Of a stretch of 64,000 bases of DNA, positions 2,091 through 45,194 are shown piece by piece. The stretch covers positions 124,001-188,000 of the forward strand of contig NZ_FNQT01000004.1 in assembly GCF_900107665.1 (NCBI RefSeq), in the 5' to 3' direction. Numbering within the stretch: position 1 is the first letter of the stretch; each line of letters starts with the position of its first letter. The translations under genes and the position numbers were made by a program. Source of the DNA: Haloplanus vescus (lineage in GTDB: Archaea > Halobacteriota > Halobacteria > Halobacteriales > Haloferacaceae). The notes beneath the pieces are model-generated. The model was not told the DNA's origin and searched no databases. It saw nothing but the letters and a program-made list of their open reading frames with translations.

Positions 2091-5000
2091 ATGTTCATCT
2101 TACATGCGGTCACGGACGATTGCGGGAAAATATACCTCTGGGCAGAGGATTCGACACTTCCTCGTTTGCGAACAAAGGAACAGGACTCGAAAGGTGGAGA
2201 GAGGCATCCGTTTGCTGTTGACAAGCAGACTCTCAACGATATTCTGTCATATGCGGGGTATGGAAACGCAAATACGGAGATGATCACTCTCACAGTCTAT
2301 TTGCCGTCAGGTCAAGATAATCCTCAGCCGTCCCCATCAATTCGGGAAGAGAACGCACAAGAGACTACCACATCACTCGCTCCGTGGCTCATCCCAGCAG
2401 TGGAAGTCGATCCAAGAGACGCTCCATTGATCCTCTCATATCTTTCGCAGCCATCTTCAACTGATAAGGAGACGATTAGTCACGGAGAAAACCTTATCAA
2501 ATCGGGACGGACCGTCAAGTACTGGTCTTCTGTTTGCTCGGTAGCAGAGTCGTACGTTGAATCTGGGCGGGTTGTACCACACCTCGCAGAGAAGGACGGG
2601 TCCGTTACCGGTGTTTGGCGTGCGTACCCCTCTAGGGAAGCTGATATTGATCTGATTACGGAGCTGATGGAAGCGATGCCACCGCTCGCACGGACATCCG
2701 TAGGGATTGGATCGAAGCCTATCCTCAACCGAGGATCCCCTAATGATCCAATCGGTCGTTCCTCAAGGGATGTCTTGACGCGCGCACTAGACCAAGTGGT
2801 CAATGCGCTGTCGAAAGAGCGCTTATCCCCGACTGAGACGGACTTAGCCACGGACAAAGTGGAATCAGCCCATCAACAATGGATCCGCACGCTTCAAAGG
2901 ACCGGGGAGCCGATCGATGCTGCTCCCGAGGCGATCGCTGAACTTCGAGACCAACTCGACGAGTGGACACGCCCTCCCGTGACAGGGGATGAGCAAGAAG
3001 TCAGGCTCTGTTTCCAGCTGAAAGAGCCTGAAGTGGAAACTGATATGCTGATTTCGGAGTCGGAGACGGAACCGGTTGTTCCTGACGGTTGGATGCTCGA
3101 ATTGCTCCTGCAATCTGAGGACGACCCGAGCCTCGTCGTTGAGGCGAGCGAACTGTGGAACTCGGATCGCTCCACATCGAAAATACTCGCACGCCATCTC
3201 AACCAGCCCACTGAGATACTGAAAAACGAACTGGAGCGCGCATCCCCGCTATATCCACGACTCAAGGAAGAACTCGACCAATCGAAACCGACTGCGATAG
3301 AGTTATCGAACAGCGATGCCGCCGAATTCCTACAGGAATATGCAGAAGTTCTCCGGCAAGCAGGATTTGGAGTGATTCTTCCAAACTGGTGGGGAGAGCC
3401 GCCGCAACGACTGGGTGCTCGACTGGTCGTCTCTGACGCCGATGACGAGTTTGAGACTACTGGTAGCGGTCTGGGAATTGAACAGCTGTGTGAGTTCGAC
3501 TGGGAGATCGTTCTCGGGGAAAACAGTCTCTCTGAAGACGAGTTGGAAGAACTATCCACACTCAAACAATCGCTCGTACACTTCCAGGGAAAGTGGGTCT
3601 CAGTACAGGACGATGACGCCAAATCGGCAAGAGACCTCCTCCATCGTGAAGAAGAACGTACTCTTGAGGAAGCGCTTCAAGCGGATACTGAGATTAGCGA
3701 CGACGGAGTTAGCCTCCCGGTCGTCGAAAAGAGATTAGAGGGAACGTTCAAGAAGTTGTTTGAGCAGGATTTCGAGATATGGGCCGAGAAAATAGACACC
3801 CCGTCTGGGTTTGACGGGGAGTTGCGCTCGTATCAGAAAACGGGCCTAGGCTGGATTTCGTATCTGGAAGATCACGGCTTTGGTGGCTGTCTGGCGGACG
3901 ATATGGGACTGGGGAAGACGATACAGATACTCGCCCGTCTCGTTCAAGAGCGTTCCGTTGATCCCTTGGTTGGTCCGACACTTGTAGTGTGTCCGTTGTC
4001 TGTGGTATACAACTGGAAAAGTGAGGCGAATAAGTTTACACCAGATCTGACGGTACATATTCACCACGGCCAAGGTCGAATGTCGGGGGGCGACCTTGCC
4101 AGCGCCATACAACACCACGACGTAATCATTACTACCTACGGGACGGCGAGGAGCGATATCGAACTACTGCGAGACATTCAGTTCCATAGGATCGTTCTTG
4201 ATGAGGCACAGAAGATCAAAAACACATCAGCCAGTCGTACACAGGCGATAAGGTCACTGTCGGCTCATCATCGGTTGGCGTTAACTGGAACTCCCGTTGA
4301 GAACCGGTTGAGTGAACTTTGGTCCATTATGGAGTTCTGCAATCCCGGACTACTTGGCACCGAGAGCCAATTCAGAAACGCCTTTTCTCGGCCTATTGAG
4401 GAACAGGGAGATATTGAGAAGATGGAGCAGCTCAGACAACTCATACGTCCATTTGTGCTGCGACGTGAGAAAACTGACAACTCGATAATCGACGATCTTC
4501 CGGAGAAATTGGAAAAAAAGGAGTACTGTGGACTCACTGAGGAACAAGCAACCCTATACAAGGCAGTAGCCGATGAAATCTTTGAGCAAATTGAGCAGTC
4601 CCAGGATATCGAACGAAGGGGGCGAATTCTGAAGCTGATCGGCAATCTCAAATCGATTTGTAATCACCCACGTCAGTATCTTAACGACGATCAGCGTATC
4701 AGTGGTCGATCGGGCAAGCTTGACGTCCTTGATGACCTCGTCCAGAAGATAGGAGCTAATGACGAGAAGGGACTGATATTCACACAATACACCCAGATGG
4801 CGGAGCTGCTGTTAGAACACTTACGAGGTCAAGGCCACCGTGTGTTCTACCTCTATGGGGGGACAGCGAAGGAGGAGCGGGAAGAGATGATTGACGAATT
4901 TGAGAACACTGAGGGATCCTGTTTCTTCTTGTTATCACTGCATGCTGGTGGCACCGGGATCAATCTCACGCCGGCTAACTACGTTATCCACTATGACCGG

Positions 5001-5243
5001 TGGTGGAACCCTGCCGTCGAAAAGCAAGCAACTGACCGAGCGTATCGGATTGGGCAAGACAATAACGTACAGGTACACAAACTGATTTGTCGAGGAACGA
5101 TCGAAGAATCGATCGACCAAATTATTGAGAGCAAGCGTGACCTAGCAGAACAGGTACTGGCCGATAGCGACGAGTGGATAACTGAACTATCGGATGAAGA
5201 ACTTCGCAACCTCGTATCGTTATCAGCAGACTCTCTGGTATGA
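2091..5243 (+). CDS. SNF2-family helicase/translocase
   Basis: A 1050-residue DNA translocase. The N-terminal half (about 1-570) is a family-specific accessory region. The C-terminal half is a SNF2 ATPase: Walker A CLADDMGLGKT near residue 605, DExQ-type box VLDEAQKIKN near 703, LTGTPVENRLSELWS near 735, and the helicase C motifs GLIFTQYTQM and DRAYRIGQ. A TATA-like TTATACT at 2030-2036 precedes the start. The stop overlaps the next start by 4 bp (ATGA), so the two form one operon. SNF2 proteins of this build are often paired with SWIM-finger proteins or found in defence loci; the partner here is different. Lower GC than its neighbours suggests acquisition. Confidence 0.92.
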   Translation: MFILHAVTDDCGKIYLWAEDSTLPRLRTKEQDSKGGERHPFAVDKQTLNDILSYAGYGNANTEMITLTVYLPSGQDNPQPSPSIREENAQETTTSLAPWLIPAVEVDPRDAPLILSYLSQPSSTDKETISHGENLIKSGRTVKYWSSVCSVAESYVESGRVVPHLAEKDGSVTGVWRAYPSREADIDLITELMEAMPPLARTSVGIGSKPILNRGSPNDPIGRSSRDVLTRALDQVVNALSKERLSPTETDLATDKVESAHQQWIRTLQRTGEPIDAAPEAIAELRDQLDEWTRPPVTGDEQEVRLCFQLKEPEVETDMLISESETEPVVPDGWMLELLLQSEDDPSLVVEASELWNSDRSTSKILARHLNQPTEILKNELERASPLYPRLKEELDQSKPTAIELSNSDAAEFLQEYAEVLRQAGFGVILPNWWGEPPQRLGARLVVSDADDEFETTGSGLGIEQLCEFDWEIVLGENSLSEDELEELSTLKQSLVHFQGKWVSVQDDDAKSARDLLHREEERTLEEALQADTEISDDGVSLPVVEKRLEGTFKKLFEQDFEIWAEKIDTPSGFDGELRSYQKTGLGWISYLEDHGFGGCLADDMGLGKTIQILARLVQERSVDPLVGPTLVVCPLSVVYNWKSEANKFTPDLTVHIHHGQGRMSGGDLASAIQHHDVIITTYGTARSDIELLRDIQFHRIVLDEAQKIKNTSASRTQAIRSLSAHHRLALTGTPVENRLSELWSIMEFCNPGLLGTESQFRNAFSRPIEEQGDIEKMEQLRQLIRPFVLRREKTDNSIIDDLPEKLEKKEYCGLTEEQATLYKAVADEIFEQIEQSQDIERRGRILKLIGNLKSICNHPRQYLNDDQRISGRSGKLDVLDDLVQKIGANDEKGLIFTQYTQMAELLLEHLRGQGHRVFYLYGGTAKEEREEMIDEFENTEGSCFFLLSLHAGGTGINLTPANYVIHYDRWWNPAVEKQATDRAYRIGQDNNVQVHKLICRGTIEESIDQIIESKRDLAEQVLADSDEWITELSDEELRNLVSLSADSLV

Positions 5244-14071: not shown

Positions 14072-15526
14072 TCAATCCGATTCTACTATATCCCGCAAAA
14101 GCTTATGTCGGGCACGTAAATCTCCTGCTGTCCAATCGCTCTCCGTGTCGTTACTCATTGAGTGAACAAGCGGGTTATAGTGAGCAACAGCATCTCGAAG
14201 GTCTTTCACATCCCATATTGTTGCCCCATATGATTCTAGATCTACCGGTAGCTGCTGCATCTCATCGGCCTCAGACAGGATGTCAAGTAGTTTCCCTACG
14301 GTACCCCCGGCTAGCTTGTCAGGTGCGAGATCGCCGACATAGGTCGTGCGGATGTGAATGTCGGTCTCAGTTTCCCAGTCCGGGATGTGTTCACGGATGA
14401 TCTTTCGTAGTCGAATTTCAAACTGAGCGAGAAGCACGTACAGATACTGGTAGACGGGAATCTTGTTCAGGTCGAATCGGGTCACGATTCCCTCCGGATC
14501 ATTTGGCTGGCCGACGAAACAGAACCGTTCTCCGTCTCTTCCTAGTCGTTCAATTACCGTCCCGACTTCTTCTCCGGGAGCGACGCAATCTGAGTCCGTT
14601 AGCGGCAGTACGTGTTCGGTGACGGGCTCTTCACCTCGTATCTCCATCTCTGCTCTGGAGACGTAGCCACGAAGTCCCTCTAGTTGCTCCGGATCATCGA
14701 AGACGAATGCAGCGTCGTAGTCCTCATAGTAGAGATCTAAGTAGACGAAGGCAGCGTCATCCTCAGCACTATATACATCCAACTCCGGGAAACATGTCGC
14801 TGTATGGCGAGCAGGCTCGCTGATTGTCGGTGAGGTTGCACTCGCCATGAGTTGGGACTCAACTTCTGATGGGTCTGGTCGGATTGATGATACCGCTGGG
14901 TCGAACTCCTCTGACTCCGGACTATTGACTTTGAGGAGCATGTGGGGAATATCGGCCTCAAAATGGTCGCGATCAACCGATTCAACATCTGCAACTTTCG
15001 GAGCCAAGTAACTGCGGAAGGGGCCCTTTGTCTCTTCTGTTTTGAATCCTCTCGTAGTCAAGAATACACCGTTTCCGTCCTCTGTTAGGACGTGTAGCGA
15101 CCGTTCGAGAAACAGCAGGCCGGTATGGATACGGGCTGTATCCGGAGATATCTGAGCAAAGGAGGTAGCATACTCGCGCTGCTTTTCCTCACTCAGATCA
15201 ATCCACTGGACGGTTGGCGGATAGCTAAGCACGAACTCAAACGAGTCAAGGCGTGCGTCCGCACTCAGATAGTCTCCGTTCCGAACCTCTACTTGGTCAG
15301 TGTAGTTCTCTCGAACCGTCTCGACATACTCGTCCTCTGTATCGATCGCAACCCCAGATGGTGGGTCATGCACCGAGTCCTCGAAATATCGTTCCACAGC
15401 AGAAATTAATTCACCTTTCCCACATCCCGGATACAGGATTCGCTTCCCGTACGTGGAGCTGATATCCTCGAAGAGGAGTTCAGCCATCCGATCAGCAACC
15501 GTCTCAGGAACACGAAATGGAGGCAT
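14072..15526 (-). CDS. methyltransferase-like/CBS/HEPN-like fusion protein
   Basis: 484 residues in three parts. Residues 1-220 are a Rossmann methyltransferase-like domain: ILYPGCGKGELISAV (SAM-binding motif I) and FVLSYPPT where N6-adenine methylases have (N/D)PPY, so catalysis is doubtful. Residues about 290-370 (HVLPLTDSDCVAP, RFCFVGQPNDPEGIVTRFDL) resemble a CBS pair. The C-terminal part (LLAQFEIRLRKIIREHIPDW, DLRDAVAHYNPL) has an RDAVAH segment matching the Rx4H motif of HEPN ribonucleases. Start at ATG 15526 with GGGAG nearby; an in-frame TTG lies 7 codons upstream. Probable defence cargo with lower GC than its flanks. Confidence 0.75.
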   Translation of the reverse strand: MPPFRVPETVADRMAELLFEDISSTYGKRILYPGCGKGELISAVERYFEDSVHDPPSGVAIDTEDEYVETVRENYTDQVEVRNGDYLSADARLDSFEFVLSYPPTVQWIDLSEEKQREYATSFAQISPDTARIHTGLLFLERSLHVLTEDGNGVFLTTRGFKTEETKGPFRSYLAPKVADVESVDRDHFEADIPHMLLKVNSPESEEFDPAVSSIRPDPSEVESQLMASATSPTISEPARHTATCFPELDVYSAEDDAAFVYLDLYYEDYDAAFVFDDPEQLEGLRGYVSRAEMEIRGEEPVTEHVLPLTDSDCVAPGEEVGTVIERLGRDGERFCFVGQPNDPEGIVTRFDLNKIPVYQYLYVLLAQFEIRLRKIIREHIPDWETETDIHIRTTYVGDLAPDKLAGGTVGKLLDILSEADEMQQLPVDLESYGATIWDVKDLRDAVAHYNPLVHSMSNDTESDWTAGDLRARHKLLRDIVESD

Positions 15527-16022
15527 AATCTCCCGTTTCGCATCCAACCTAATGACGTTATGCCGGGAGAGAGTGGTTCACTCATCTGAGTCGGTGGTCT
15601 CTGATTGGACTGTTTCGTGAACATTCTCCAGTTCCTCTCGGCGAGCCGACGCTCTGGTGGACGCTGATGTCGTGCTTTTTACAGAGCATTCGTTTGACTG
15701 TGAAGGTCATCTCGTCAAAATCGGCCGTCGTGATGCCGATGTCCTCCGGTGATAGGGTCTCATCAGCCGTTGATGTCTCGAAAACAGGTATCGGCCGCGA
15801 TGTCGCTAGTGGGGAGCCGTCACTCGTCGCCTTCGAACCCCTCACGCGCGCGCGAATTCGCGCACGCTATTCGCGCGTAATTGGCGTCCTCAAGCGCTCT
15901 AACACCAGATTTATGGATTATGGGTGTATCTGTCCTGATAGAATGTCATCAGATCACTCTCGACTCAGGCTTGCCACCATGTTTAGTCGATTTCAGAGCC
16001 AGCCAGAGGAGGGTCGTTGAAT
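15527..16022. other. divergent intergenic region with possible gene remnant
   Basis: Lies between the leftward fusion gene and a rightward unknown gene. A leftward frame at 15582-15845 encodes a plausible protein-like segment (ETLSPEDIGITTADFDEMTF) but has no convincing start or ending and may be a remnant. A perfect 14-bp palindrome GCGCGAATTCGCGC lies at 15850-15863, with a related ATTCGCGCG immediately beyond it. Confidence 0.4.
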
Positions 16023-17321: not shown

Positions 17322-17342
17322 GTCCCGCACCCCTTGCGGGAC
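17322..17342 (-). repeat. intergenic hairpin, perfect 8-bp stem
   Basis: GTCCCGCA at 17322-17329 and TGCGGGAC at 17335-17342. The coding-strand loop is AGGGG and runs into TGCGG; four TTG/TTC repeats precede it. It lies 23 bp upstream of the leftward start at 17298. Confidence 0.75.
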
Positions 17343-17432
17343 GAACAACAACAACGCTCATGTCGTCGCGACTTCGTCGCCACCGTCGGCAACGTATATA
17401 GTCATAGCAAGATACTGTCCAATTACATTCGG

Positions 17433-18797
17433 ATGGCTGTACTGGACGACCTCTCGGGATTCGAGTTCGAGGACTTGATGGAGGACGTCTTCCGGAACCT
17501 CGGCTACGAGAACGTCCGTCAGGCCGAGCGGACGGCCGACGAGGGGCGCGACGTCATCATGGAGGAGGTCGTCGATGGGACGCGACGGGCGATCATCGTC
17601 GAGTGTAAGCACACTGGGACGGTCGGCCGGCCGGTTGTCCAGAAGCTCCACTCGGCGATCGCGACGTTCGACTTCGACGGCCCCAAACGCGGAATGGTCG
17701 TCACGACTGGCCGGTTCACGAATCCTGCTCAGGAGTACGCCGACCGCCTCCAGCAGAACGACGACCCTCATCCAATCGAGTTACTCGATGGCGAGGACCT
17801 CCGGGAGATCGCCGACGAAATCGGTCTCGATCTCTACAACGGGCGCATCGAGATCCTCTGTGACGAGACGCTCCGACCGTACGACCCGGCGGCGGATGTC
17901 GACGCACCTGTCCAGGAGGCGTTCCGCGACATTGAGAACATCGAGGCCGCGGATCTGCCGGTGCCGCACTCGCAAGTGACGTTCCGACCGGTGGTTGCGA
18001 TCACCGCCGACACGAACGCTGTCTTCGAGACCTCAGTCGGTGTCATCCACCGGATCAACGACCGTACACAGTTCGTTGTCCACGCTGAGCGCGGCCATCC
18101 GAAGGTGGCCGACGACGAAGTCGCGACGCTGGTCACCGAGAATTTCCACGCGACGGTTCCCCTCGATACCGGGCAGCTTACCGAGGTATTCGACGATGTC
18201 GACGAACGACGGTTCGGCCAGACCCAAACGGAGTACAAGGAGTGGGCTGTTGACCGCATCCAGGATTACCACACGACGACGGTGACCTACACCGGCGACA
18301 ATAACGTCACGTACAACAAGACGTGTGAGCCCAATCTCTCGGACATCTCAGTGCAATCGATTGAGCCGGTGTATCTACCTGAGGTTCGGCAGACGACAGA
18401 GATACTGGAGTACTCGTATCCGTACGAATACTATGCTGCTGGCCCCTCACGGGTCACTCTGGAGGACGGGATTCATCGCTGCGTCCACTGCAAAACGAGC
18501 GGCGTCGACGAGACGTACACCTACTGTCCGAACTGCGGGGCGATCGCCTGCGACACCCACATCAAGACCGAACGGCTCGAAGGGGAGCCGGTCTGTACCG
18601 GCTGTGCGGTGACCGAACGGTTCGCGCTGAAGAGGAAGTACTTCTACGACGAGGAGAATCTCGACGCGTTCCGAAAGGAGTACGCCGAGATGCCGATCCA
18701 CGAGAAGGCGATGGAGAACAAGCTGCTGGCTGGCGGGAGCGTGGTTGCGACGCTGCTGCTCGTCGTCGGACTCCTCGTGATCGGCGGCATCATCTAA
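17433..18797 (+). CDS. Mrr-like restriction endonuclease with zinc ribbon and membrane anchor
   Basis: 454 residues. The N-terminal Mrr-type PD-(D/E)XK nuclease shows FEFEDLMEDVFRNLGYENV, EGRDVIM (catalytic Asp) and IIVECKH (ExK), residues about 5-60. A central beta-rich domain follows. CVHC, CPNC, CDTH and CTGC (about 350-400) make a zinc-binding module, and the last 25 residues (LLAGGSVVATLLLVVGLLVI) are a membrane helix. Start at MAVLDDLSG; TATA-like GTATATA at 17394-17400 predicts a very short leader. Family members cleave foreign or methylated DNA. A membrane-tethered version could act on entering DNA, which is inference. Confidence 0.82.
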   Translation: MAVLDDLSGFEFEDLMEDVFRNLGYENVRQAERTADEGRDVIMEEVVDGTRRAIIVECKHTGTVGRPVVQKLHSAIATFDFDGPKRGMVVTTGRFTNPAQEYADRLQQNDDPHPIELLDGEDLREIADEIGLDLYNGRIEILCDETLRPYDPAADVDAPVQEAFRDIENIEAADLPVPHSQVTFRPVVAITADTNAVFETSVGVIHRINDRTQFVVHAERGHPKVADDEVATLVTENFHATVPLDTGQLTEVFDDVDERRFGQTQTEYKEWAVDRIQDYHTTTVTYTGDNNVTYNKTCEPNLSDISVQSIEPVYLPEVRQTTEILEYSYPYEYYAAGPSRVTLEDGIHRCVHCKTSGVDETYTYCPNCGAIACDTHIKTERLEGEPVCTGCAVTERFALKRKYFYDEENLDAFRKEYAEMPIHEKAMENKLLAGGSVVATLLLVVGLLVIGGII

Positions 18798-27722: not shown

Positions 27723-30700
27723 ATGACAGAGGACAGTGTTTTTCTTGCAGATTCTATATCTCGGCCGGAGGAGGAAATCATAGTCCAATATATCCAAGAG
27801 AGGGAGAGTCCGATTCATATCTTTGGTGAGCCAGGCGTTGGGAAAACAACAATTCTTGAACGGGTAATAACCGATGGTATAGCCGATCTTGATGTAAATA
27901 AGCGAAATATACGGGCAAACCATAGTCTCAATGATCTATTTCGTGAGGTCTGCCACGCACTCTTTGCGGCTCTCCCTGAAGACAAGAAAGAGGAGGGACG
28001 ACAGTTTGCCGGACTCAGTGTCAGTTCACCAGTTGGTGGAGCCGGTGTCTCATTCGAAAGCGTGGAAGCCGAAGCATCACGAGCACAGTTTGGGTATCGG
28101 GATTCCCTACTGGGCCTCAGCGAATTATTCCCCGAGGATCAGCGTCTGCTCATCTGCATTGACGACGTACATGAACTGAGTGATGACGAACGTGCGATTC
28201 GAGATGCGATTCAAGAAGCTGATGATACCCTTCCATCAGAGGTGGTTCTCATCACGGCCGGTCGACTTGTATGGGATGACCTTGAGACAGCTGTATCGCT
28301 CTCGATGTTTGCCGAAGAACAGACCGTAACCTTTCTTCAAGATGTTTTCCCAGAGATTTCTGCCGAACGGGCACGTACGATTCATGACCAGTTAGGCGGC
28401 CACCCATTGTACATCGGGTTGTTGGCCGAGTCGGACGTTGACCAAGAGCTTCCCGACATCCCAGAACGAGAAGTACAACAAGAGATCGAACAACGGTATT
28501 TTGGCTTCTTAGAGCCTGATGAACGCCGCCTTCTCTTGGCAACAGCACCGTTAGATGAGCTCAATGAGGAACTCTGCACACAGGTTGTTTCAGAGGAATA
28601 TGGATTTGACCGCATCACCGTCGGAGACATCCTTGATTCCCTAAGTACCCGTACCGTCGTACAGACAATCGGTCGGAATGCTGACGGCCTCCAAACGTTC
28701 AAAATCCATGATGTCTTCCGCGAATTCTTGCAAGAGCGCTCCGACCACATTGAGATCGCCCGCAGAGGCGCATGTATCTATTACGCTGAGAAATTAATCC
28801 AACTTGTCGATGAGGATCGGACTTTCGAGACCGAAATCGATTACGTCACATCGTGGTCAACCCATCTCTCAGACCACGTTATCAATGAAGAATCACATCT
28901 CATCGCGCAACTTATCGAAGAGACCGTAGCTGATGATGGCCTCCGATTCTATCCCCTGTCATTGCTTATTAGGGAGTTCAAAAAACGAGATGCAACTGCA
29001 CTCCCGGACGAGATCGTTGAGTCGGTTCTCGACAGCGTTGATGCAAGCTGTTCAATGGCGAATGATTTCTACGATACCGACTTGGATCACTCCTGGGCCG
29101 AGTTACTGTTTCAGGACGGAGCATTCACCAACCCAGATAGTAATCTCATTAGTTATCTAGGACGGACCACAGAGACACAACCAACGTTTATTCGACGCGT
29201 GGCTGAAGAAATCGACACCGAAGATAACCGAACACTCCGATTCCTTATCTCCATTGGCCGCGACCTCCCCATCAATGATGCCGCTCTAATCGGGCAACAA
29301 GCAGCGATCTGGATCCAAGACGACGAAGCATACGGATACCTTGCCAGCCACACACTGCGACTAGCCTCATATCTGGCTGAAAACGGCGAATACGATGTTC
29401 CACTTGAAATACTCGAAGCCGTCCTGGAACCCCGAGATGGGGACCAGTTAGACATTGACCAGGGGATGGTACGCTACAATCTCACAACAATGCTTGACGA
29501 GAACTTTGACGCCTTAATCAGCGAGCGAGGTGAAAAACTGATTAGGGTGTTCGCCTCGAAACTCACCGCGGCTCTCGATCAATACGCTGACAGAGCAAGA
29601 CTGGTTGCGGCACGTACCTCTTTCGCTGATTTACAGTATGTCGAGGACAATAGAGGTAGCCTCGAAGAGATTCTTCTGGAATATTTTATACGGGCGGTTA
29701 CTGACTGGGTGGCTGAGAATACATCAGGAAACGAGCAAAACGAATTGGTTGAGCAACTTCTGTCTCGACCTACCCTTCTTCGACGTGTTGGCTTCTATGT
29801 CCTCAGCGAGCACCCGGACTCCTTTGAGGAAACCATTCAAAATGAACTGACGACGTCGGAGAATTATCGCGAGCACCAATCACAGTACGAATTTTATCTG
29901 GTCCTCAGTTCAGGTTTCGAATACTTGGATGACGCTGCTCAAGCCCAAGTGTGTGAGATTATTGAAGATGGGCCATATACCGATTCAGTAGAGGATCAAG
30001 CGGCACGGATGGCTGAACGAGGTGAAGAATCAGCAAGCTACTTCGAACAACGGATTCGCGAGACATGGCGGCGAGACAGGTTGTATATGATCCGCGAGCA
30101 TTTGAAGGGAGAGTATTCTGATCAGCTTGATGAATTGGTAGAAAAATATGGTGAGCCGGATCAACTACCGTCGCGAACCCCTCAGCCAACGGTGAGTGGA
30201 GGGATGGTTCGCGAACGAGGCCCCGTCGAAACCGAGGAACTCCGTGAACAGTCTGCCGAGGAAGTATTGACGACCGCGGTTGAATGGGAACCGCCAGAAT
30301 CTGACCTTTGGGATACCCTGGAAGACGATCAACTCGAGGAACAGAATTATCTAGGGTTCTCTCGCCAGCTTCGAGAGCTGATTATGGAGGATCCGCAGCG
30401 GTATGCGCGTGAAATCTCGGTGTTGGAAGACGCGAACCCACGATATGCTGAAGCCGCATTTCGGGCCTTCAGCGAGCTCGTTGACGATGGAGAAACCTTT
30501 CCCTGGGAGTCTATCATTGAACTCGGCCAAGTGATTACCGCATCGCCGACCTCATGGAGTGGTCAGGTTCGAACAAACTTGGCCAAGCTGATAAACAAAG
30601 GGATTGCAGCGGATGCAATTGAATTCCCAGCCGGTACTGAGTCAGCCGTTGAATCGATTCTACGAACCTTACTAACTGACTCGGACCCAGATGCCGATAG

Positions 30701-31760
30701 AGACCAGCCTTCGGAGGGGATGGCTGGATATGGTGACCCAGTTCAAGTAGCGATCAACAGTGTTCGACCAATGGCTGTGAACGCATACATCACTTACCTT
30801 AGTTGGCAGGATGGCCACACCGAGGACGCCCTTTCCCAGGATATCTTCGACCCAATCCGCGACCGCATCCGTGAGGATCCCTCACTTGCGGTTCGATCCG
30901 TGATTGGGCGACGATTTGGACGTCTATATTCTCTTGATCCAGATTTGATTGAAGAGCATCTTACAGATATTTTCCCACGCGACACTGACCTGGATGGTCG
31001 ACAACGGTTTATTGCCGCGTGGAACTCCTACACAGCAAGTAATCGATACTGGGATGATGACTCTTTCCGCCCATACTACCGACACGCACTCAACCTCCTA
31101 GATACAGACGAGGATCAGGCGTATCAAATCGCAATACGCTCGACAACCGCACACGTCGTTTCCATCTATCTGTTCGAAGATGAAGACATCGCCGATGAGG
31201 ACAGTCTCATGCGACAGTTCTACGACGTAGTAGATCGCGATGGAGCAAAGGAATTAGCATCAACAATGTCTTCGTCAATGGGAAATGACAATGTTGAAGA
31301 ACAGTGGAAGAAGATTCGAGAACTTTGGTCATGGCGGTTAGATACTCTTGATCCCGACGATGAGGCGAATGGTGCAGAAGTCTATCAGTTCCTTGATTGC
31401 GTAAGGAATTCGACTAAAACGACACTAGAAGAGGAGAATATACTCATTGGCCGATCTCTTCCCTTCGTCGCCCACCAAAATCACCATTGGCGACGTATTG
31501 AAGAGTGGCTCGCTGAACAGTCTACATCCTATCCAGTGGTTGCAATTAATCTCTATGACGAATTAGTAGAAGCTGTCCCCTGCGAAGACTGGTCAGCTAT
31601 AGCACGCAATAGCGAAGAAGAGAACCGGTCTCAATTGTACGAAAGTGCTGAAGCAGCAGGAAGTGATCCACTTCAAACAGCATTAGATATAGCGGATCAG
31701 TTCGCAGCAGAAAACAACCAAATGGATAGAGAGTTTTTGGAACAACACCTAACTCCGTAG
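27723..31760 (+). CDS. STAND-family NTPase, probable defence sensor
   Basis: 1345 residues. A P-loop NTPase near the N-terminus has Walker A FGEPGVGKTT (about 35-44), Walker B LLICIDDVHE (about 142-151), LGGHPLYIGLLAE and a winged-helix-like LQTFKIHDVFREFLQ segment, the order found in STAND (NACHT/AP-ATPase) proteins. The remaining 900 or so residues are helical repeats suitable for ligand sensing. No N-terminal effector domain is present, so an effector may be separate; the convergent nuclease gene is a candidate. Lower GC than the backbone indicates transfer. Confidence 0.83.
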   Translation: MTEDSVFLADSISRPEEEIIVQYIQERESPIHIFGEPGVGKTTILERVITDGIADLDVNKRNIRANHSLNDLFREVCHALFAALPEDKKEEGRQFAGLSVSSPVGGAGVSFESVEAEASRAQFGYRDSLLGLSELFPEDQRLLICIDDVHELSDDERAIRDAIQEADDTLPSEVVLITAGRLVWDDLETAVSLSMFAEEQTVTFLQDVFPEISAERARTIHDQLGGHPLYIGLLAESDVDQELPDIPEREVQQEIEQRYFGFLEPDERRLLLATAPLDELNEELCTQVVSEEYGFDRITVGDILDSLSTRTVVQTIGRNADGLQTFKIHDVFREFLQERSDHIEIARRGACIYYAEKLIQLVDEDRTFETEIDYVTSWSTHLSDHVINEESHLIAQLIEETVADDGLRFYPLSLLIREFKKRDATALPDEIVESVLDSVDASCSMANDFYDTDLDHSWAELLFQDGAFTNPDSNLISYLGRTTETQPTFIRRVAEEIDTEDNRTLRFLISIGRDLPINDAALIGQQAAIWIQDDEAYGYLASHTLRLASYLAENGEYDVPLEILEAVLEPRDGDQLDIDQGMVRYNLTTMLDENFDALISERGEKLIRVFASKLTAALDQYADRARLVAARTSFADLQYVEDNRGSLEEILLEYFIRAVTDWVAENTSGNEQNELVEQLLSRPTLLRRVGFYVLSEHPDSFEETIQNELTTSENYREHQSQYEFYLVLSSGFEYLDDAAQAQVCEIIEDGPYTDSVEDQAARMAERGEESASYFEQRIRETWRRDRLYMIREHLKGEYSDQLDELVEKYGEPDQLPSRTPQPTVSGGMVRERGPVETEELREQSAEEVLTTAVEWEPPESDLWDTLEDDQLEEQNYLGFSRQLRELIMEDPQRYAREISVLEDANPRYAEAAFRAFSELVDDGETFPWESIIELGQVITASPTSWSGQVRTNLAKLINKGIAADAIEFPAGTESAVESILRTLLTDSDPDADRDQPSEGMAGYGDPVQVAINSVRPMAVNAYITYLSWQDGHTEDALSQDIFDPIRDRIREDPSLAVRSVIGRRFGRLYSLDPDLIEEHLTDIFPRDTDLDGRQRFIAAWNSYTASNRYWDDDSFRPYYRHALNLLDTDEDQAYQIAIRSTTAHVVSIYLFEDEDIADEDSLMRQFYDVVDRDGAKELASTMSSSMGNDNVEEQWKKIRELWSWRLDTLDPDDEANGAEVYQFLDCVRNSTKTTLEEENILIGRSLPFVAHQNHHWRRIEEWLAEQSTSYPVVAINLYDELVEAVPCEDWSAIARNSEEENRSQLYESAEAAGSDPLQTALDIADQFAAENNQMDREFLEQHLTP

Positions 31761-38675: not shown

Positions 38676-41600
38676 CTATCCCTCAGTATAGAAGCTGATG
38701 TAGAACGACCCACCACGAAGCTTTTCTAGAATCTCCCGCTCCTCTCGCTCGATACCGACGAACTCGTCGACGTTGTCTATATCTAAGAGATTTACAGTGC
38801 GGTCATTGTCACTTCGCCAGTCGGTTGAGAAACCGACGAGTCGGATTATGTAACGGAATGCGCGCACTTGGTCCGTGTTTGCGTCGTCTGGGGACAACGG
38901 TCCGGGACGGAGCGCCATACGTAGCTCGTTCCCGGTTAATTTGATTCGGCCGCTTCGCATCCGTTCCGCTGCGACGGCTTTCGACTCGACCCGATACATC
39001 CACTCCGGTGTCCAAGACACGACGGACTCGGTTTCTGGCATTGCCGCGAAGGGATCTATCAAGTCAAACCCTGGCCCTCGTTCCGCAGACGTATCGAACA
39101 GGGCGTGGAACGCCATCCTTGTATCGCTCGTCTCAGCCAGGTTCTTTGTCCGGAGCACATCGGCAGGGCTGGTGGCCTCCACTGCGCCGCTACTGGTCCA
39201 CGATGTTGCAATCTCGTCGACTGACTTCAGTCTCCACCTGTCGTGTCCACGCCACGTTTCCAAGCGATCTAAAATCGACGAACGGACGCTGACTGGTGCG
39301 GCTTGGAATCGCTGCCACGCACGATTCAAGCAAATTAATTCTCCCTCTCGGCCTCTTGCATCGATTCCGACGTTGGGTTGTCCGTACTCACCCCCCGAGG
39401 AATCGCCGATGGTTGGGGAACCTCCTCCGGAAGCGGAGCCGTCGGCTGAGATCTGTGATGCGAGCGAATCGAGCGACTCATCTCGCCCCTGAAGCCACTC
39501 ATTCGTGAGATCTTCCCTCGTTCGGCCCTCATCGGTTGCGTAGTCACTCGTTGTGCCGTAGAACTTCGCGAGCGCGGTTTCAAAGGCTTTGTCACCGCCA
39601 TTGGGAGTCGTCGCCGCTTCGATGAGTGACTCCATCCGCTCTTCGATGGTCTGGTCGGTATAGATTACATCCGACTGTTTCAGGTCTTCCCACTCTGTGC
39701 GACCCCATTTCCTGACGGCGCCTCTGAGATGTTCCAGCGGTTCTGGCGTTGACTTGAGGTAGGGCAACGCGCCGAGCCGGACCTCGCAAATGTCGGATGG
39801 AAGCGTTTCTGCGTGCGGAACGAATTGCGCGACGCGTCTATTTGGCTTTGGAGCCGGTGTAGCCTCTCGCGCATCTTTGGCTGCGCGTTCGAGGGTCGCC
39901 TCGCCCTCATCTTCGTACCTACCGACTGCATTCCAGAACCGACGAAATCGTTGTATAGTCGTGCTGTATGACTCCACCGGAGCGGTACCCTTTGCCGACG
40001 GCCACGTTTCGAGAGTTTGCCACCGATACCCGGCCTTGACGAGTGCGTCGATGTCGATACTGTTAACGGACTGATCGAGTTGGTAGGTGATCCGGTGTCG
40101 CACCGCCTCATCGTCGGTGGCTGCGGCACGTATACATTCGATAGCGACCTCATTGTCGAATCCACACTTCTCAGTCAGCGTGTTGAGCCACGACTGGAGC
40201 AACGTGCTCTTAGTAACCGCGGCTGGGTCATCTTCGAGTCTGTGTAACTCATTCAGCGTTACGCGCGCGTTGACAGTGAGTTCATCCCCTTCAGTTAGGG
40301 ATACGGTGGGTGCAATCGTCGAAACGAGGCCCTGAAGAGTGTGGTGGATAACTTCAAGACGCTGTGTACGGAGCTCGTTGATCTCCGCTCGAACTTCCTC
40401 CAATGCCGAGCGATACTCTGTCTCCAGTGCCGACTCTCCTTTGAACAAGACGTTCTCGAAGGTATCTGCGAGGTCGAACTGTTCGAGTACTTGGACGATA
40501 CCATCTGCTGTGAGGTACGGCGGTATCGCGTCACCATCGACACGCTTCACTGCGTCTTCGAAAAGGGCGATATGTAGTCCTCCATCCTTGGCTCCGTCAG
40601 CCGGTTCCCATTGTGCCGAATTACGCTGCGTATCGTCATCGTCGTCACGTGCGACGATCGCGATTCGGTTCTCGACGACAGCAGACAATTGATCGTGCTT
40701 TTCTTCGAGGTCTGGAGCTGTTGCCTGTTCGAGATATGCTGCCAACAGGTACTGTTGACGCTGCCGAAGCGTCTCCCGAAGGGTGTCGAGGCGATCCGTC
40801 CCCGATTCGACCTCACCACCACTGACTGGTCGAGGAGACGGTGGTTCGCTCTCTATGATTATCCCGAATGTTACTGTCGTCGCCTCTTCGTCGGCAGAGC
40901 TTTCGGTCCCAAGAAGGCGGGCAACTTCTGTCGAGTCGGAAGGCCGTTCGACGAACGGCCGTGCGTCCCGAACCAACCGATCACGTGAAAACGAGGAGAG
41001 TGGTTGTGTGAAAATAACCGGCTGCTGTGCTATTGACGGCGCCCCCGGTGCGGGCGCTTCCGCACCAATCTTAAGCGCTTTCGAGTTGCGGCCTTCTGTA
41101 ATTCGAACCGTCGTTCCGAGGCGCCAAATATCGCGCCGAATCCAGCGCCGAATCTCTGGTCGTTCGTCGAGTCGATCTGCGAGTGTCTGTCCGGAAGCGA
41201 GCCGGCGCATCAGGGCGTCGATGGGCACAGAAAGCGCCCGTGCGGACCAGCTCGCCGATATATCGAAGGGGTTCTGACCTGGTGTCTTCTCCACTGCGAA
41301 CTGCCCAATGAACCAGTTGAGTCGCTGAGCTGCCATCGGTGGGGTCAAATTATCGATTTCTCGAATACCGAGGATCCTGAGAGCTGACGAAATATCCACT
41401 GCCTCTGACCCCGATGTGGGAGCTAACCTCTGTTCGAGTTTGGAACTGTCGACTCGCGGCAAATACTGAGCAGCCCCTCTGACTTGTTCTGCATCGTCGA
41501 AGATCAATTTCTCTGCCGAAGCTGTCGTCCCATCCTCGACTGTAAGCCGGTCATTCCCGCCCTCATCTTCGAATTGGCTGTCGACAGGCCAGAGCTCTGC

Positions 41601-44600
41601 TTGAGCTAATTGCACGGTTCCGAGGCTGGGGATAGCAGCCCCGTCTGGGCTTTCGCTGAACGAGTGCCAGTTGCTACAGAGCCACGCGCTGTTAGCGACT
41701 GTTTCGGCAAGGTCTGGCCATAGGAGCAAGATTGCGTCCCGATACTTCTCGCGAGCTCGACCATCAGATATCTGAGGTAGATCGGGGAAGTACCACCAGA
41801 CCGGCATAAGTGCCTCTTGCGAATCGTTTGCAGCCCATGTTTCCTCGTCGCATTCCAGCCAGTTGTTTCCACAGCCCGTTGAGTGGGTGGCGGTGAATGC
41901 AGGATGATTGTCTGACCGCCACATGACGTCGGTATAGGTATCTAAAACCTCGTCTGGCACGTCGAATCCGTCGTCTTCGTTGAGGGGTTCTCCGCGAGCG
42001 AGATTCTGGGCATCGGCAACGCTAATTGTACCTGCCTCACGATCGTCGTCTCCTCTGGTCGGCAACACCCATCGCCAATCGATTCGAGGGCCGATCTGTA
42101 CGCCCAGATGAATCAGGAAGTCCAGACGCAAGACCCGCTGGAGCCCCTCGCTACTTGACCAACTTCCAAACACCCGTTGCCAATAGTCGCTTTCTGGTTC
42201 CGCGAGTGTCGGTGTCTCGGACGGTGTTACGCTGGACGCCTTCTCGATGACCGCTGCCCATCGCCGAAACGTAGTTGCTCGGGACTCTTCGTGTGACCCT
42301 GCGTCGAAGAATCGATCTGAACTCGAATCGATTCCTTCTAGAATATCTGCAGCTGCTTCGAACTCGCTTACCCATTCGGTCCCGAATACGATTTGTTCGG
42401 CAGGAAGCGTTTCGTCCTGCCCGTCCTGGTGTCCGATTGGCAATTCAACCTGCTGGGTGTAGCGCCGCTCAAGATAGTCATCGTAGTCGGAAGGCAATTT
42501 GTTCGTCTTGGCACCAGTTAATGTGGCCTCTACCTCGTCGAATCGACGATTCCGATTGGGGATTGGATGAAGCCACTTCGCTATCTGTCCACGTGTTACC
42601 GTCTCGTAGAGTGTCGAGAGATAACCGATAACGCTAGAATCGGAAGTTCTCTCCCCCGAATATCCTCCAGCCTCTGCAGCAACCCGTCGGTAGAATTCTG
42701 CAGGGCTATCCAGATTTCTGGTCCCCCAGTCCCGGTTGAAACTCTCGAGTGGCCCGATCCATTCCGTTCGGAACGGGACCACGAACACGGGGAGTGTCGT
42801 CGGTGGGGATGGAAGTTCTGAGATAATTGACTCAGACGTCTGACTACTCCCGGTTCGGCGAAAGACAATACGCTCGCTCCGTTGTGCTCCGTGTCCCTGC
42901 CGCGTGTCTCCGCGAGAGCGAGCACGAACGAGATGTGTGACACCATTAGAGGCATCAGTGTCGTTAGCCTGGTGTGCTTCGGCGGGTATGAGGGGGACTC
43001 TTTTTTCCCCGAGCCGACCCGCTGCTCGCTTCACGTCTGAATCGTCGTCTAAGTCGAGTTCATCACCTTCAGAGGCTGATGTGAGGATCGAACAGATCGT
43101 CTCGAAGTACGCCTCCGCGTGTTCAACCCGTTCAACTGGTACCGCCCACCTACCAGAGGAAACAGCGCTTCCACTGAGCCCCCAGTACTCACACAGAATA
43201 TCGATGCAGCCTCGGGCATTACCGGTGTCATCGTCGAAAAGACGCTCCAGAACCTCGGTCAGGCCCAGCCTCCTCGCACACTGGCGAAATGTATGCTCGG
43301 TGTCGCCCTGTAATGTAGAGACACGTTGACTCCAGGTGTCTCCCGACTCAATGACTGTCTCGGCTGGTAACGGTGCTTCGGGCGCGTCTCGACGAAGGGT
43401 CTCGAACCCTCGAATGCGCTCGGGATCAAGCAGGGTATCCCGAGGGCATTGTGCGTCCGTGTCATCGGTCGGAACAATCGGAGAATCCTGAAGCAACGTG
43501 ACCGCCTCCTGTACGCTCTCGGTTAGAGGCGTCCCGGAACCCGAACTGGGTTCCCCGCGTAACGGCATCGTCATCCAAGGCATCCACTGCCTGAATCCAT
43601 CCCTGCTTGCTCCTCTCTCGTCGCCCCTCGCCAAGTCTGTCCCGGCGTCAGCAATTAAGTCTGGAAGCCGGTCAAGGATCTGTAGATTTTGTTGGTCGTC
43701 AGCGAGCGACTGCCTATCGAACTCGACCCGGAATGGTGCGTGGACGACGAACGGGAACGGGGTCGTAGCCTTCTCTATCGGGTAGTGGAGGTAGAGTGGC
43801 TTTGGCGATGGGTTCCAGTCATCCGTCGATTCGGGGGGCCGTTCGAACAGTAGGTGGATCTCGTCCCGTTCGTCTTGGTCGTCATTCGGAACAATCTCGT
43901 CATATGTTCGAGTGTAGCGTCTATACTGACGAGTCTGCGAGGTACCGTCGGCGGTCTGGACCGTATAATCGACTGACCTGCGAGTCGTATTGGAGTGTTC
44001 GTCTATTGAGCGTTGATCAGCCTGGTCTATGCAAACCTGATGCCGATCTATAATCTGAAGCTGTCCTGTCTCGTCGTGCGTCACCTGAATCAGGTCGAGC
44101 TCTTCGATCTCTTCAAGGAGAATCAGCGTTTCAGGTGAGATATCAGTGCACTCTTCCCAGAATTCGCGCCGACGTCGTTCGCAGAATGCAGCGCGATCCA
44201 CGGGTTCTGACGAACGCCGGTTTGTGAATGTTGCCGCTCCTTCTTTGTCAGATGTCGTGAGGACCGACTCAATATGATCCAATAGATCACGCCACTGGTC
44301 ATCCAAGTACTCGAGTTCGACTACCGTTGAGAAATCACCCCGATACTCGTCTAGCCAGTCAGCTAACTGAGGATCCACTCGCTTGGAGAGGTTCGCGCTC
44401 GATACATTATCCCGAATGAGATGTGTCTGGAGTGGCGTTGAGTCCGCTTGAGTATCGTTCTGTAGGAACGGATAACGGAACAGGGAGATCCGGGGAATGT
44501 CTGTGAGAATATCTACAGGGGTCGGCGGCGGTTGTCTCGGCTCATTGAGGAGTTGATCCACCAGTTCGTCTATATCGATACTATCCGGGACGACACTTTG

Positions 44601-45194
44601 ATCGGAGAATGAAAAGCGGCCTGTGTCTAAGAAATCCGACTGGGTCTCGGTGACTCCGAGACGGTCGACGAAAGAATCGGTATCGAGTAATCTTTCATAC
44701 ATCGAGAGAACCATTTGCGCACTCTTCGCCCGAGAGAACGTAGCCGAGAAATCCTCACCGTCCACGCTTGAGTGAATGCTGAATGCTTCACTCAGCTGTA
44801 AAATCGATTTTAGTCCGACTCCCTTCTCCCCGATCGAATCCCGTTCCTTTGCTTTGGCAGAACGTCCCAGAGATGTGACTGCCTCGAACACGTCATCGTC
44901 GTCTAAATGAAATGGCTCACCGGAGTTGGCAATTAGTAGTGATTCTGGCCCCACAATAACTGCGACTCGTCCATTGGTCTCTTCCTCACTCTCGACAATC
45001 GCGTCTCGAGCATTTTGAATTAGCTCCAGAATAGTGCGGTTGTCGTGTGCGGCAGACACGACTTGGTTCCCGTACCCAAGATCGCCTTCTCGATTCCAGG
45101 CGGTTCGGTTATTGAGCCCACTCAGAAGTTCGATGTATTCCTCGTGGCAGAGCTGAGATATACGACTGGTGACACCTGCCTGCGTGTCCATCAT
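38676..45194 (-). CDS. giant sacsin-like GHKL ATPase, probable defence protein
   Basis: 2172 residues. The N-terminus is a Hsp90/histidine-kinase-type ATP-binding domain as in sacsin: ILELIQNARDAIVE (N box, near residue 60), SLLIANSGEPF (G1-like) and GEKGVGLKSILQLSEAF (G2, near 125). The other roughly 2000 residues show no motif I can name; several segments are rich in Trp and charged residues. Proteins of this form occur sporadically in haloarchaea near restriction and defence genes. A TATA-like sequence lies at 45229-45235. Base composition is less GC-rich than the flanks. Confidence 0.82.
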   Translation of the reverse strand: MMDTQAGVTSRISQLCHEEYIELLSGLNNRTAWNREGDLGYGNQVVSAAHDNRTILELIQNARDAIVESEEETNGRVAVIVGPESLLIANSGEPFHLDDDDVFEAVTSLGRSAKAKERDSIGEKGVGLKSILQLSEAFSIHSSVDGEDFSATFSRAKSAQMVLSMYERLLDTDSFVDRLGVTETQSDFLDTGRFSFSDQSVVPDSIDIDELVDQLLNEPRQPPPTPVDILTDIPRISLFRYPFLQNDTQADSTPLQTHLIRDNVSSANLSKRVDPQLADWLDEYRGDFSTVVELEYLDDQWRDLLDHIESVLTTSDKEGAATFTNRRSSEPVDRAAFCERRRREFWEECTDISPETLILLEEIEELDLIQVTHDETGQLQIIDRHQVCIDQADQRSIDEHSNTTRRSVDYTVQTADGTSQTRQYRRYTRTYDEIVPNDDQDERDEIHLLFERPPESTDDWNPSPKPLYLHYPIEKATTPFPFVVHAPFRVEFDRQSLADDQQNLQILDRLPDLIADAGTDLARGDERGASRDGFRQWMPWMTMPLRGEPSSGSGTPLTESVQEAVTLLQDSPIVPTDDTDAQCPRDTLLDPERIRGFETLRRDAPEAPLPAETVIESGDTWSQRVSTLQGDTEHTFRQCARRLGLTEVLERLFDDDTGNARGCIDILCEYWGLSGSAVSSGRWAVPVERVEHAEAYFETICSILTSASEGDELDLDDDSDVKRAAGRLGEKRVPLIPAEAHQANDTDASNGVTHLVRARSRGDTRQGHGAQRSERIVFRRTGSSQTSESIISELPSPPTTLPVFVVPFRTEWIGPLESFNRDWGTRNLDSPAEFYRRVAAEAGGYSGERTSDSSVIGYLSTLYETVTRGQIAKWLHPIPNRNRRFDEVEATLTGAKTNKLPSDYDDYLERRYTQQVELPIGHQDGQDETLPAEQIVFGTEWVSEFEAAADILEGIDSSSDRFFDAGSHEESRATTFRRWAAVIEKASSVTPSETPTLAEPESDYWQRVFGSWSSSEGLQRVLRLDFLIHLGVQIGPRIDWRWVLPTRGDDDREAGTISVADAQNLARGEPLNEDDGFDVPDEVLDTYTDVMWRSDNHPAFTATHSTGCGNNWLECDEETWAANDSQEALMPVWWYFPDLPQISDGRAREKYRDAILLLWPDLAETVANSAWLCSNWHSFSESPDGAAIPSLGTVQLAQAELWPVDSQFEDEGGNDRLTVEDGTTASAEKLIFDDAEQVRGAAQYLPRVDSSKLEQRLAPTSGSEAVDISSALRILGIREIDNLTPPMAAQRLNWFIGQFAVEKTPGQNPFDISASWSARALSVPIDALMRRLASGQTLADRLDERPEIRRWIRRDIWRLGTTVRITEGRNSKALKIGAEAPAPGAPSIAQQPVIFTQPLSSFSRDRLVRDARPFVERPSDSTEVARLLGTESSADEEATTVTFGIIIESEPPSPRPVSGGEVESGTDRLDTLRETLRQRQQYLLAAYLEQATAPDLEEKHDQLSAVVENRIAIVARDDDDDTQRNSAQWEPADGAKDGGLHIALFEDAVKRVDGDAIPPYLTADGIVQVLEQFDLADTFENVLFKGESALETEYRSALEEVRAEINELRTQRLEVIHHTLQGLVSTIAPTVSLTEGDELTVNARVTLNELHRLEDDPAAVTKSTLLQSWLNTLTEKCGFDNEVAIECIRAAATDDEAVRHRITYQLDQSVNSIDIDALVKAGYRWQTLETWPSAKGTAPVESYSTTIQRFRRFWNAVGRYEDEGEATLERAAKDAREATPAPKPNRRVAQFVPHAETLPSDICEVRLGALPYLKSTPEPLEHLRGAVRKWGRTEWEDLKQSDVIYTDQTIEERMESLIEAATTPNGGDKAFETALAKFYGTTSDYATDEGRTREDLTNEWLQGRDESLDSLASQISADGSASGGGSPTIGDSSGGEYGQPNVGIDARGREGELICLNRAWQRFQAAPVSVRSSILDRLETWRGHDRWRLKSVDEIATSWTSSGAVEATSPADVLRTKNLAETSDTRMAFHALFDTSAERGPGFDLIDPFAAMPETESVVSWTPEWMYRVESKAVAAERMRSGRIKLTGNELRMALRPGPLSPDDANTDQVRAFRYIIRLVGFSTDWRSDNDRTVNLLDIDNVDEFVGIEREEREILEKLRGGSFYISFYTEG

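Follow-up and report, generated by a model that had tools for sequence, protein, structure and literature searches.

A putative pseudo-methylase fused to a DS-11-like CBS-HEPN module on a haloarchaeal plasmid, a candidate single-protein defence effector

What does a protein do in which a DNA methylase-like domain is joined to a CBS pair and a HEPN-like domain? The question was raised by a gene in a 64,000-nucleotide stretch of Haloplanus vescus DNA (contig NZ_FNQT01000004.1, positions 124,001 to 188,000; referred to as the window), which had been annotated merely as hypothetical. From the letters of the DNA, a SAM-binding motif, a degenerate methylase motif (SYPPT for NPPY), a CBS-like middle and a HEPN-like C-terminus with RDAVAH had been proposed; a degenerate DNA methylase sensing for a HEPN RNase, it was suggested, would be an abortive-infection protein of a new type. 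The gene, its parts and its neighbours are listed in Table 1. Starting from an upstream TTG at 15547, the product would comprise 491 aa; the alignment of homologues was best from the ATG.

Table 1. Position of the fusion gene, its parts and its neighbours in the window.
Feature	Position	Strand	Remarks
Downstream gene, 401 aa	12669..13874	minus	Plasmid backbone; also in Halobaculum XH14 without the fusion
Pseudo-methylase-CBS-HEPN gene (putative)	14072..15526	minus	484 aa; ATG at 15526, stop at 14072
HEPN-like domain	14075..14458	minus	Residues 357-484; based on HEPN family matches in aligned members and invariant E, R and R-x4-H
R-x4-H motif, R444-DAVA-H449	14180..14197	minus	RDAVAH, residues 444-449
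CBS pair (Bateman module)	14462..14821	minus	Residues 236-355; based on CBS Pfam matches in homologues and alignment with the CBS region of DS-11
Y270, equivalent of DS-11 Y157	14717..14719	minus	Based on alignment with DS-11
TaqI/BseCI-type (Eco57I family) adenine DNA methyltransferase-like domain	14882..15526	minus	Residues 1-215, without target-recognition domain
Motif IV position, Y102-P-P-T105	15212..15223	minus	In place of N-P-P-Y; both catalytic residues, Asn and Tyr, gone; SYPPT is residues 101-105
Motif I (SAM-binding loop), YPGCGKGE	15410..15433	minus	Residues 32-39; kept in the window protein
Small ORF, 87 aa	15582..15845	minus	Immediately upstream; accompanies the fusion at two near-identical loci, weakly conserved in L003
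Divergent neighbour, 263 aa	16017..16808	plus	Accompanies the fusion in close relatives; possible partner
Mrr-type restriction endonuclease with zinc-ribbon	17334..18797	plus	Mrr_cat, 6.5e-27

Scanned on its own against Pfam, the window protein gave a weak, sub-threshold match to Methyltransf_25 and no CBS or HEPN match, and the case was therefore built on relatives. In one protein, a single R-x4-H or an unusual motif IV could arise by chance; the observation is confirmed by the conservation of these features across relatives. AlphaFold models had a pLDDT of 30 for the whole protein and 32 for the CBS-HEPN half, using shallow alignments of near-identical sequences only.

Full-length relatives were found in six further independent lineages (31-38% identity) by searching 391 class-level genomes. 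In addition, near-identical copies were present in Halarchaeum acidiphilum, Halorubrum distributum (split over contig ends) and Natrinema thermotolerans, the latter plasmid-borne and 99.6% identical. Because of this near-identity across genera, recent horizontal movement of the fusion is indicated. Outside haloarchaea, a profile search of 393 phylum-level genomes yielded no full-length fusion; the non-haloarchaeal coverage of the searches consisted of this phylum sample and of plasmid, phage and viral collections. No relative was found on viral contigs using either the fusion profile or a CBS-HEPN profile, and no match to a DS-11-like haloarchaeal protein was found in phages.

Most of the remaining matches were either stand-alone methylases, aligned with residues 6-190, or stand-alone CBS-HEPN proteins, aligned with residues about 240-481. 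In trees constructed for each half, the fusions lay on one side of a branch, with a support of 97/92 for the methylase half and of 90/75, which is not firm, for the CBS-HEPN half. One old fusion event is the simplest reading of this arrangement, and the architecture appears old and kept, given the six independent full-length haloarchaeal relatives besides the window protein. Long N-terminal extensions on the stand-alone CBS-HEPN ORFs in L050-L052 were judged to be spurious frames. A similar conserved reading frame lies at L100 1893-2291 and may be antisense to a gene next to it that has escaped recognition.

Mean identity between the fusion lineages was 30% for the methylase half, 36% for CBS and 39% for HEPN. 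The greater divergence of the methylase half would fit either a role as sensor or relaxed constraint. Comparing the window copy with L003, dN/dS was 0.21 overall and 0.20 in the methylase part; all parts of the fusion are under purifying selection and, given these values, the methylase part is not simply decaying.

The origin of the N-terminal half was determined using a profile of this half and its stand-alone relatives, which matched M.BseCI (9e-16) and M.TaqI (3e-12); in the relative L038, the Pfam Eco57I methylase scored above cut-off. The first 200 residues are homologous (about 28-37% identity) to haloarchaeal stand-alone N6-adenine methylases of the TaqI/BseCI/Eco57I type, which are about 455 aa long with TaqI_C. 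These enzymes keep NPPY and a TaqI-like specificity domain, whereas the fusion lacks both. The catalytic aromatic of motif IV is lost in all seven independent fusion lineages, where the letters vary freely (YPPT, NPPS, SPTH, DPPK, NPPT, HPPQ and DPPV), compared with NPPY in 21 of the 21 stand-alone relatives. Likewise, YPPT of the window protein departs from (N/D/S)PP(Y/F/W), the motif IV of active gamma-class N6-adenine methylases. A target-recognition domain is absent, and the CBS-HEPN part follows directly at the position taken by TaqI_C in stand-alone relatives (two were scanned with Pfam, one scoring above cut-off and one just under). Based on the loss of the motif IV aromatic in all seven lineages and the replacement of the target-recognition domain by CBS-HEPN, the N-terminal domain appears to be a pseudo-methylase, which bears out the degenerate methylase of the sequence-only reading.

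The middle of the protein had been read as CBS-like, and CBS Pfam models indeed scored above cut-off in L038, L039 and L040. Similarly, HEPN_RiboL-PSP was matched by four of the 10 aligned HEPN segments (best E 5.8e-4; not by the window segment alone), with weak matches to Abi_2 and Swt1-HEPN among these segments. E370, R374, R444 and H449 do not vary among the aligned fusions, the stand-alone haloarchaeal CBS-HEPN proteins and E. coli DS-11. The C-terminus is thus HEPN-like both by profile and by motif, the RDAVAH picked out beforehand occupying the invariant R-x4-H position. A PDB sequence search using the HEPN segment returned chance coiled-coil matches only.

DS-11 is a validated one-protein anti-phage system of E. 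coli, described in the DefensePredictor work (PMC13092281), in which Y157 contacts adenine and is essential for defence (Y157A) and the HEPN residues are likewise required (PMC13092281). The NCBIfam model NF053863 (DS11_antiphage) matched five of the six distant fusions across CBS and HEPN (E 8e-5 to 5e-9). Bit scores were 16.0 for the window protein and 22-36, or no match, for its relatives, far below the curated equivalog cut-off of 260 bits; E. coli WP_000257686.1 (365 aa, strain KE47) scored 404.9 bits. Conversely, E. coli DS-11 scored 42.9 bits against a profile built from the fusions. When the CBS-HEPN region was compared with DS-11 profile to profile, the result was 97% (E 1e-10, 195 columns); using HEPN without CBS, the match to DS-11 was weak (E 0.0017, 15% probability), and the HEPN part matched the stand-alone haloarchaeal CBS-HEPN proteins at 99% (E 1.8e-18). 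The C-terminal half aligned end to end with DS-11, with CBS and HEPN colinear, and is homologous to it.

In this alignment, Y270 corresponds to residue 157 of the KE47 protein, the tyrosine of HDYSQLPV; the numbering of the KE47 protein is presumably that of PMC13092281. The position is Tyr in all fusions but one, with Phe in L036. Fusion and DS-11 are thus alike in being encoded by a single gene, in the order CBS pair then HEPN, and in the conserved CBS tyrosine and HEPN Arg/His. They differ at the N-terminus, which in DS-11 is a short unrelated region (about 125 aa in E. coli KE47) and in the fusion a methylase-like domain. The closest relatives of the C-terminal half are the stand-alone haloarchaeal CBS-HEPN proteins, which are about 260 aa long, annotated as CBS domain-containing protein and in several cases plasmid-borne among mobile genes. 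They lack the methylase domain and form a separate clade, sister to the fusions. A DS-11-like match with five stop codons at L061 (G013:C2:238348-239223) is apparently a pseudogene.

Most members of the gene family adjoin defence genes. In Haladaptatus sp. QDMS2, the fusion has a BREX-5 operon with an AddAB-like pair on one side and the DISARM genes drmA-drmB-drmC on the other. It is located beside drmA-drmB-drmC in G156, with DrmMII further on, beside drmA at a contig end in G239, beside an AddAB-like pair in G074, and between a BrxH-like helicase and a DUF262/HEC-06-like gene in G049. In total, drmA was a neighbour at three loci (with drmB and drmC at two), BREX-5 at one of these and an AddAB-like nuclease at two. 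The fusion L035 (G276) is situated among mostly metabolic genes and not defence genes. In the methylase tree, the three fusions linked to DISARM form one group (96/87), and this link may therefore be one ancestral association. CBS-HEPN proteins are also encoded in G350 and G374, about 9-14 kb away from DrmA.

Two further genes were noted at these loci. A 1144-aa protein adjoining DrmA (L074 22101-25535), without Pfam or PADLOC match, was rejected as a specific partner, since it accompanies DrmA in fusion-less DISARM genomes as well (G101, G037 and G216). An HhH-GPD/nicking-endonuclease-like gene of 214 aa adjoins the fusion in two DISARM loci (L037 9441-10085 and L039 7928-8572; 53% identical).

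The window itself is part of a 201-kb contig (C4), in which all places compared recur identically 104,006 bases further on. The replicon is therefore probably a circular plasmid of ~104 kb, of which the assembly covers about 1.93 turns, or else a dimer. A gene duplication, considered in view of the two copies in the genome, was rejected as the contig represents these turns of one 104,006-bp circle, with no real duplication signal. The plasmid is rich in defence genes. In the genome of the window, drmA was absent at E 1e-100, and the locus thus does not carry the DISARM core drmABC. On a related plasmid segment (L049 4364-10261), a stand-alone CBS-HEPN gene occupies the slot of the fusion beside the same Mrr, and a Halobaculum XH14 plasmid sharing backbone genes encodes a DS-11-like CBS-HEPN protein (L081 6959-7726; 119.8 bits to NF053863). 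Elsewhere in the window are encoded a 1345-aa protein matching the defence-associated PADLOC model Dsr1 over residues 550-1213 (27723-31760, plus strand; 4.7e-28), a 2172-aa protein matching the PADLOC model TmtA (38676-45194, minus strand; 1.9e-171) and, as further defence-like cargo of the plasmid, a 1050-aa SNF2-type helicase like ZorD/DpdE (2091-5243, plus strand).

The reading we favour, and hold to be reasonably probable, is that the protein is a DS-11-like nucleotide-gated HEPN RNase carrying a pseudo-methylase as infection sensor or partner-binding platform, and acts as a single-protein defence effector. From DS-11 and from HEPN and CBS biology we infer a dimeric HEPN RNase, held or released by a CBS pair that would bind an adenine nucleotide or an adenine derivative. 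The position of the pseudo-methylase, its divergence and its replacement of the DS-11 N-terminus suggest that this part, which lacks a target-recognition domain, would sense infection or bind a partner. The viral cue that it engages could be DNA, a methylase or helicase of virus or host or, in members retaining motif I, SAM/SAH. Following engagement, the ligand state of the CBS pair would change and HEPN would cleave RNA of the cell or the virus, so that growth and the production of virus would cease. Such RNases usually bring about abortive infection, and abortive infection or growth arrest would be expected here as well. Only tentatively do we extend this to an archaeal immune receptor of a new class that, with a nucleotide-gated HEPN RNase in place of the target-recognition domain, would sense viral DNA, methylation or methylase activity through its pseudo-methylase and serve as a suicide back-up of DISARM/BREX-type modification systems.

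Two narrower forms of the favoured reading were considered, both rather unlikely. According to the first, the N-terminal domain binds SAM/SAH and HEPN fires on a change of the SAM pool, for instance when a virus brings a SAM hydrolase/lyase or methylates heavily; the CBS pair, too, could bind this adenosyl ligand. The motif I GxG and the acidic residues of motifs II and III, intact in the window protein, L037 and L038 and largely so in L040, are consistent with such binding, and the motif YPGCGKGE named by the sequence-only reading was recovered here. MJ0100, a CBS protein binding adenosyl ligands, was among weak PDB profile matches. However, L035, L036 and L039 have an eroded motif I, so SAM binding is not family-wide and may survive in some members only. 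In the second form, given much the same low probability, the dead methylase imitates a true methylase (host, viral or DISARM/BREX) or forms a dimer with it, and HEPN fires when that methylase is attacked or a viral one appears. Descent from a real DNA methylase family argues for such a decoy or guard, as do DISARM/BREX methylase genes nearby in two loci and the inactive DAM domain of DndH, proposed as dominant negative (PMC10853773). Yet only two fusion genomes (G049 and G276) were seen to encode a stand-alone methylase from this family, and none was found in the genome of the window.

A toxin-antitoxin pair, with HEPN as toxin and the 263-aa, 87-aa or 401-aa neighbour as antitoxin, is improbable: although the 263-aa gene accompanies the fusion in close relatives, none of the three neighbours has been kept next to the six distant fusions, and the 401-aa gene is also found where the fusion is absent. 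Least credible is an active methyltransferase on RNA or protein with HEPN as an RNA-binding helper and no role as defence effector since, although several members retain the fold and motif I, seven lineages carry seven different motif IV tetrapeptides and the HEPN Arg/His are invariant.

Returning to the favoured reading of a nucleotide-gated HEPN RNase with a pseudo-methylase, its novelty is narrower than had been proposed from the sequence, since the CBS-HEPN effector is already known through DS-11 (PMC13092281). What looks new is the pseudo-methylase front end; its combination with CBS-HEPN was not found in the literature searched. Passages of Anantharaman et al. (2013; PMC3710099) note HEPN-CBS fusions, with CBS proposed as a nucleotide sensor for the HEPN RNase, a feature that the fusion shares and to which it adds a degenerate methylase. 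HEPN domains associated with R-M systems are described there as fused to nucleases, helicases and ATPases and not to methylases, and HEPN-M/DUF86 as occasionally fused to methylase domains; a degenerate methylase fused to CBS-HEPN does not appear in the passages searched. DndH resembles the fusion in carrying a dead DNA adenine methylase domain within a defence protein, paired in DndH with an REase and a HerA/FtsK ATPase and in the fusion with HEPN (PMC10853773).

Through the fusion, CBS-HEPN defence, a principle validated only recently, would be extended to archaea, where it carries another N-terminal domain. The fusion is also a natural example of an enzyme of DNA modification apparently turned pseudo-enzyme inside an effector protein. 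Its sensing and effector steps are directly testable through the conserved Y270, R444, H449 and motif I. More broadly, the CBS-HEPN proteins, some of which adjoin DISARM, point to a putative widespread layer of haloarchaeal immunity.
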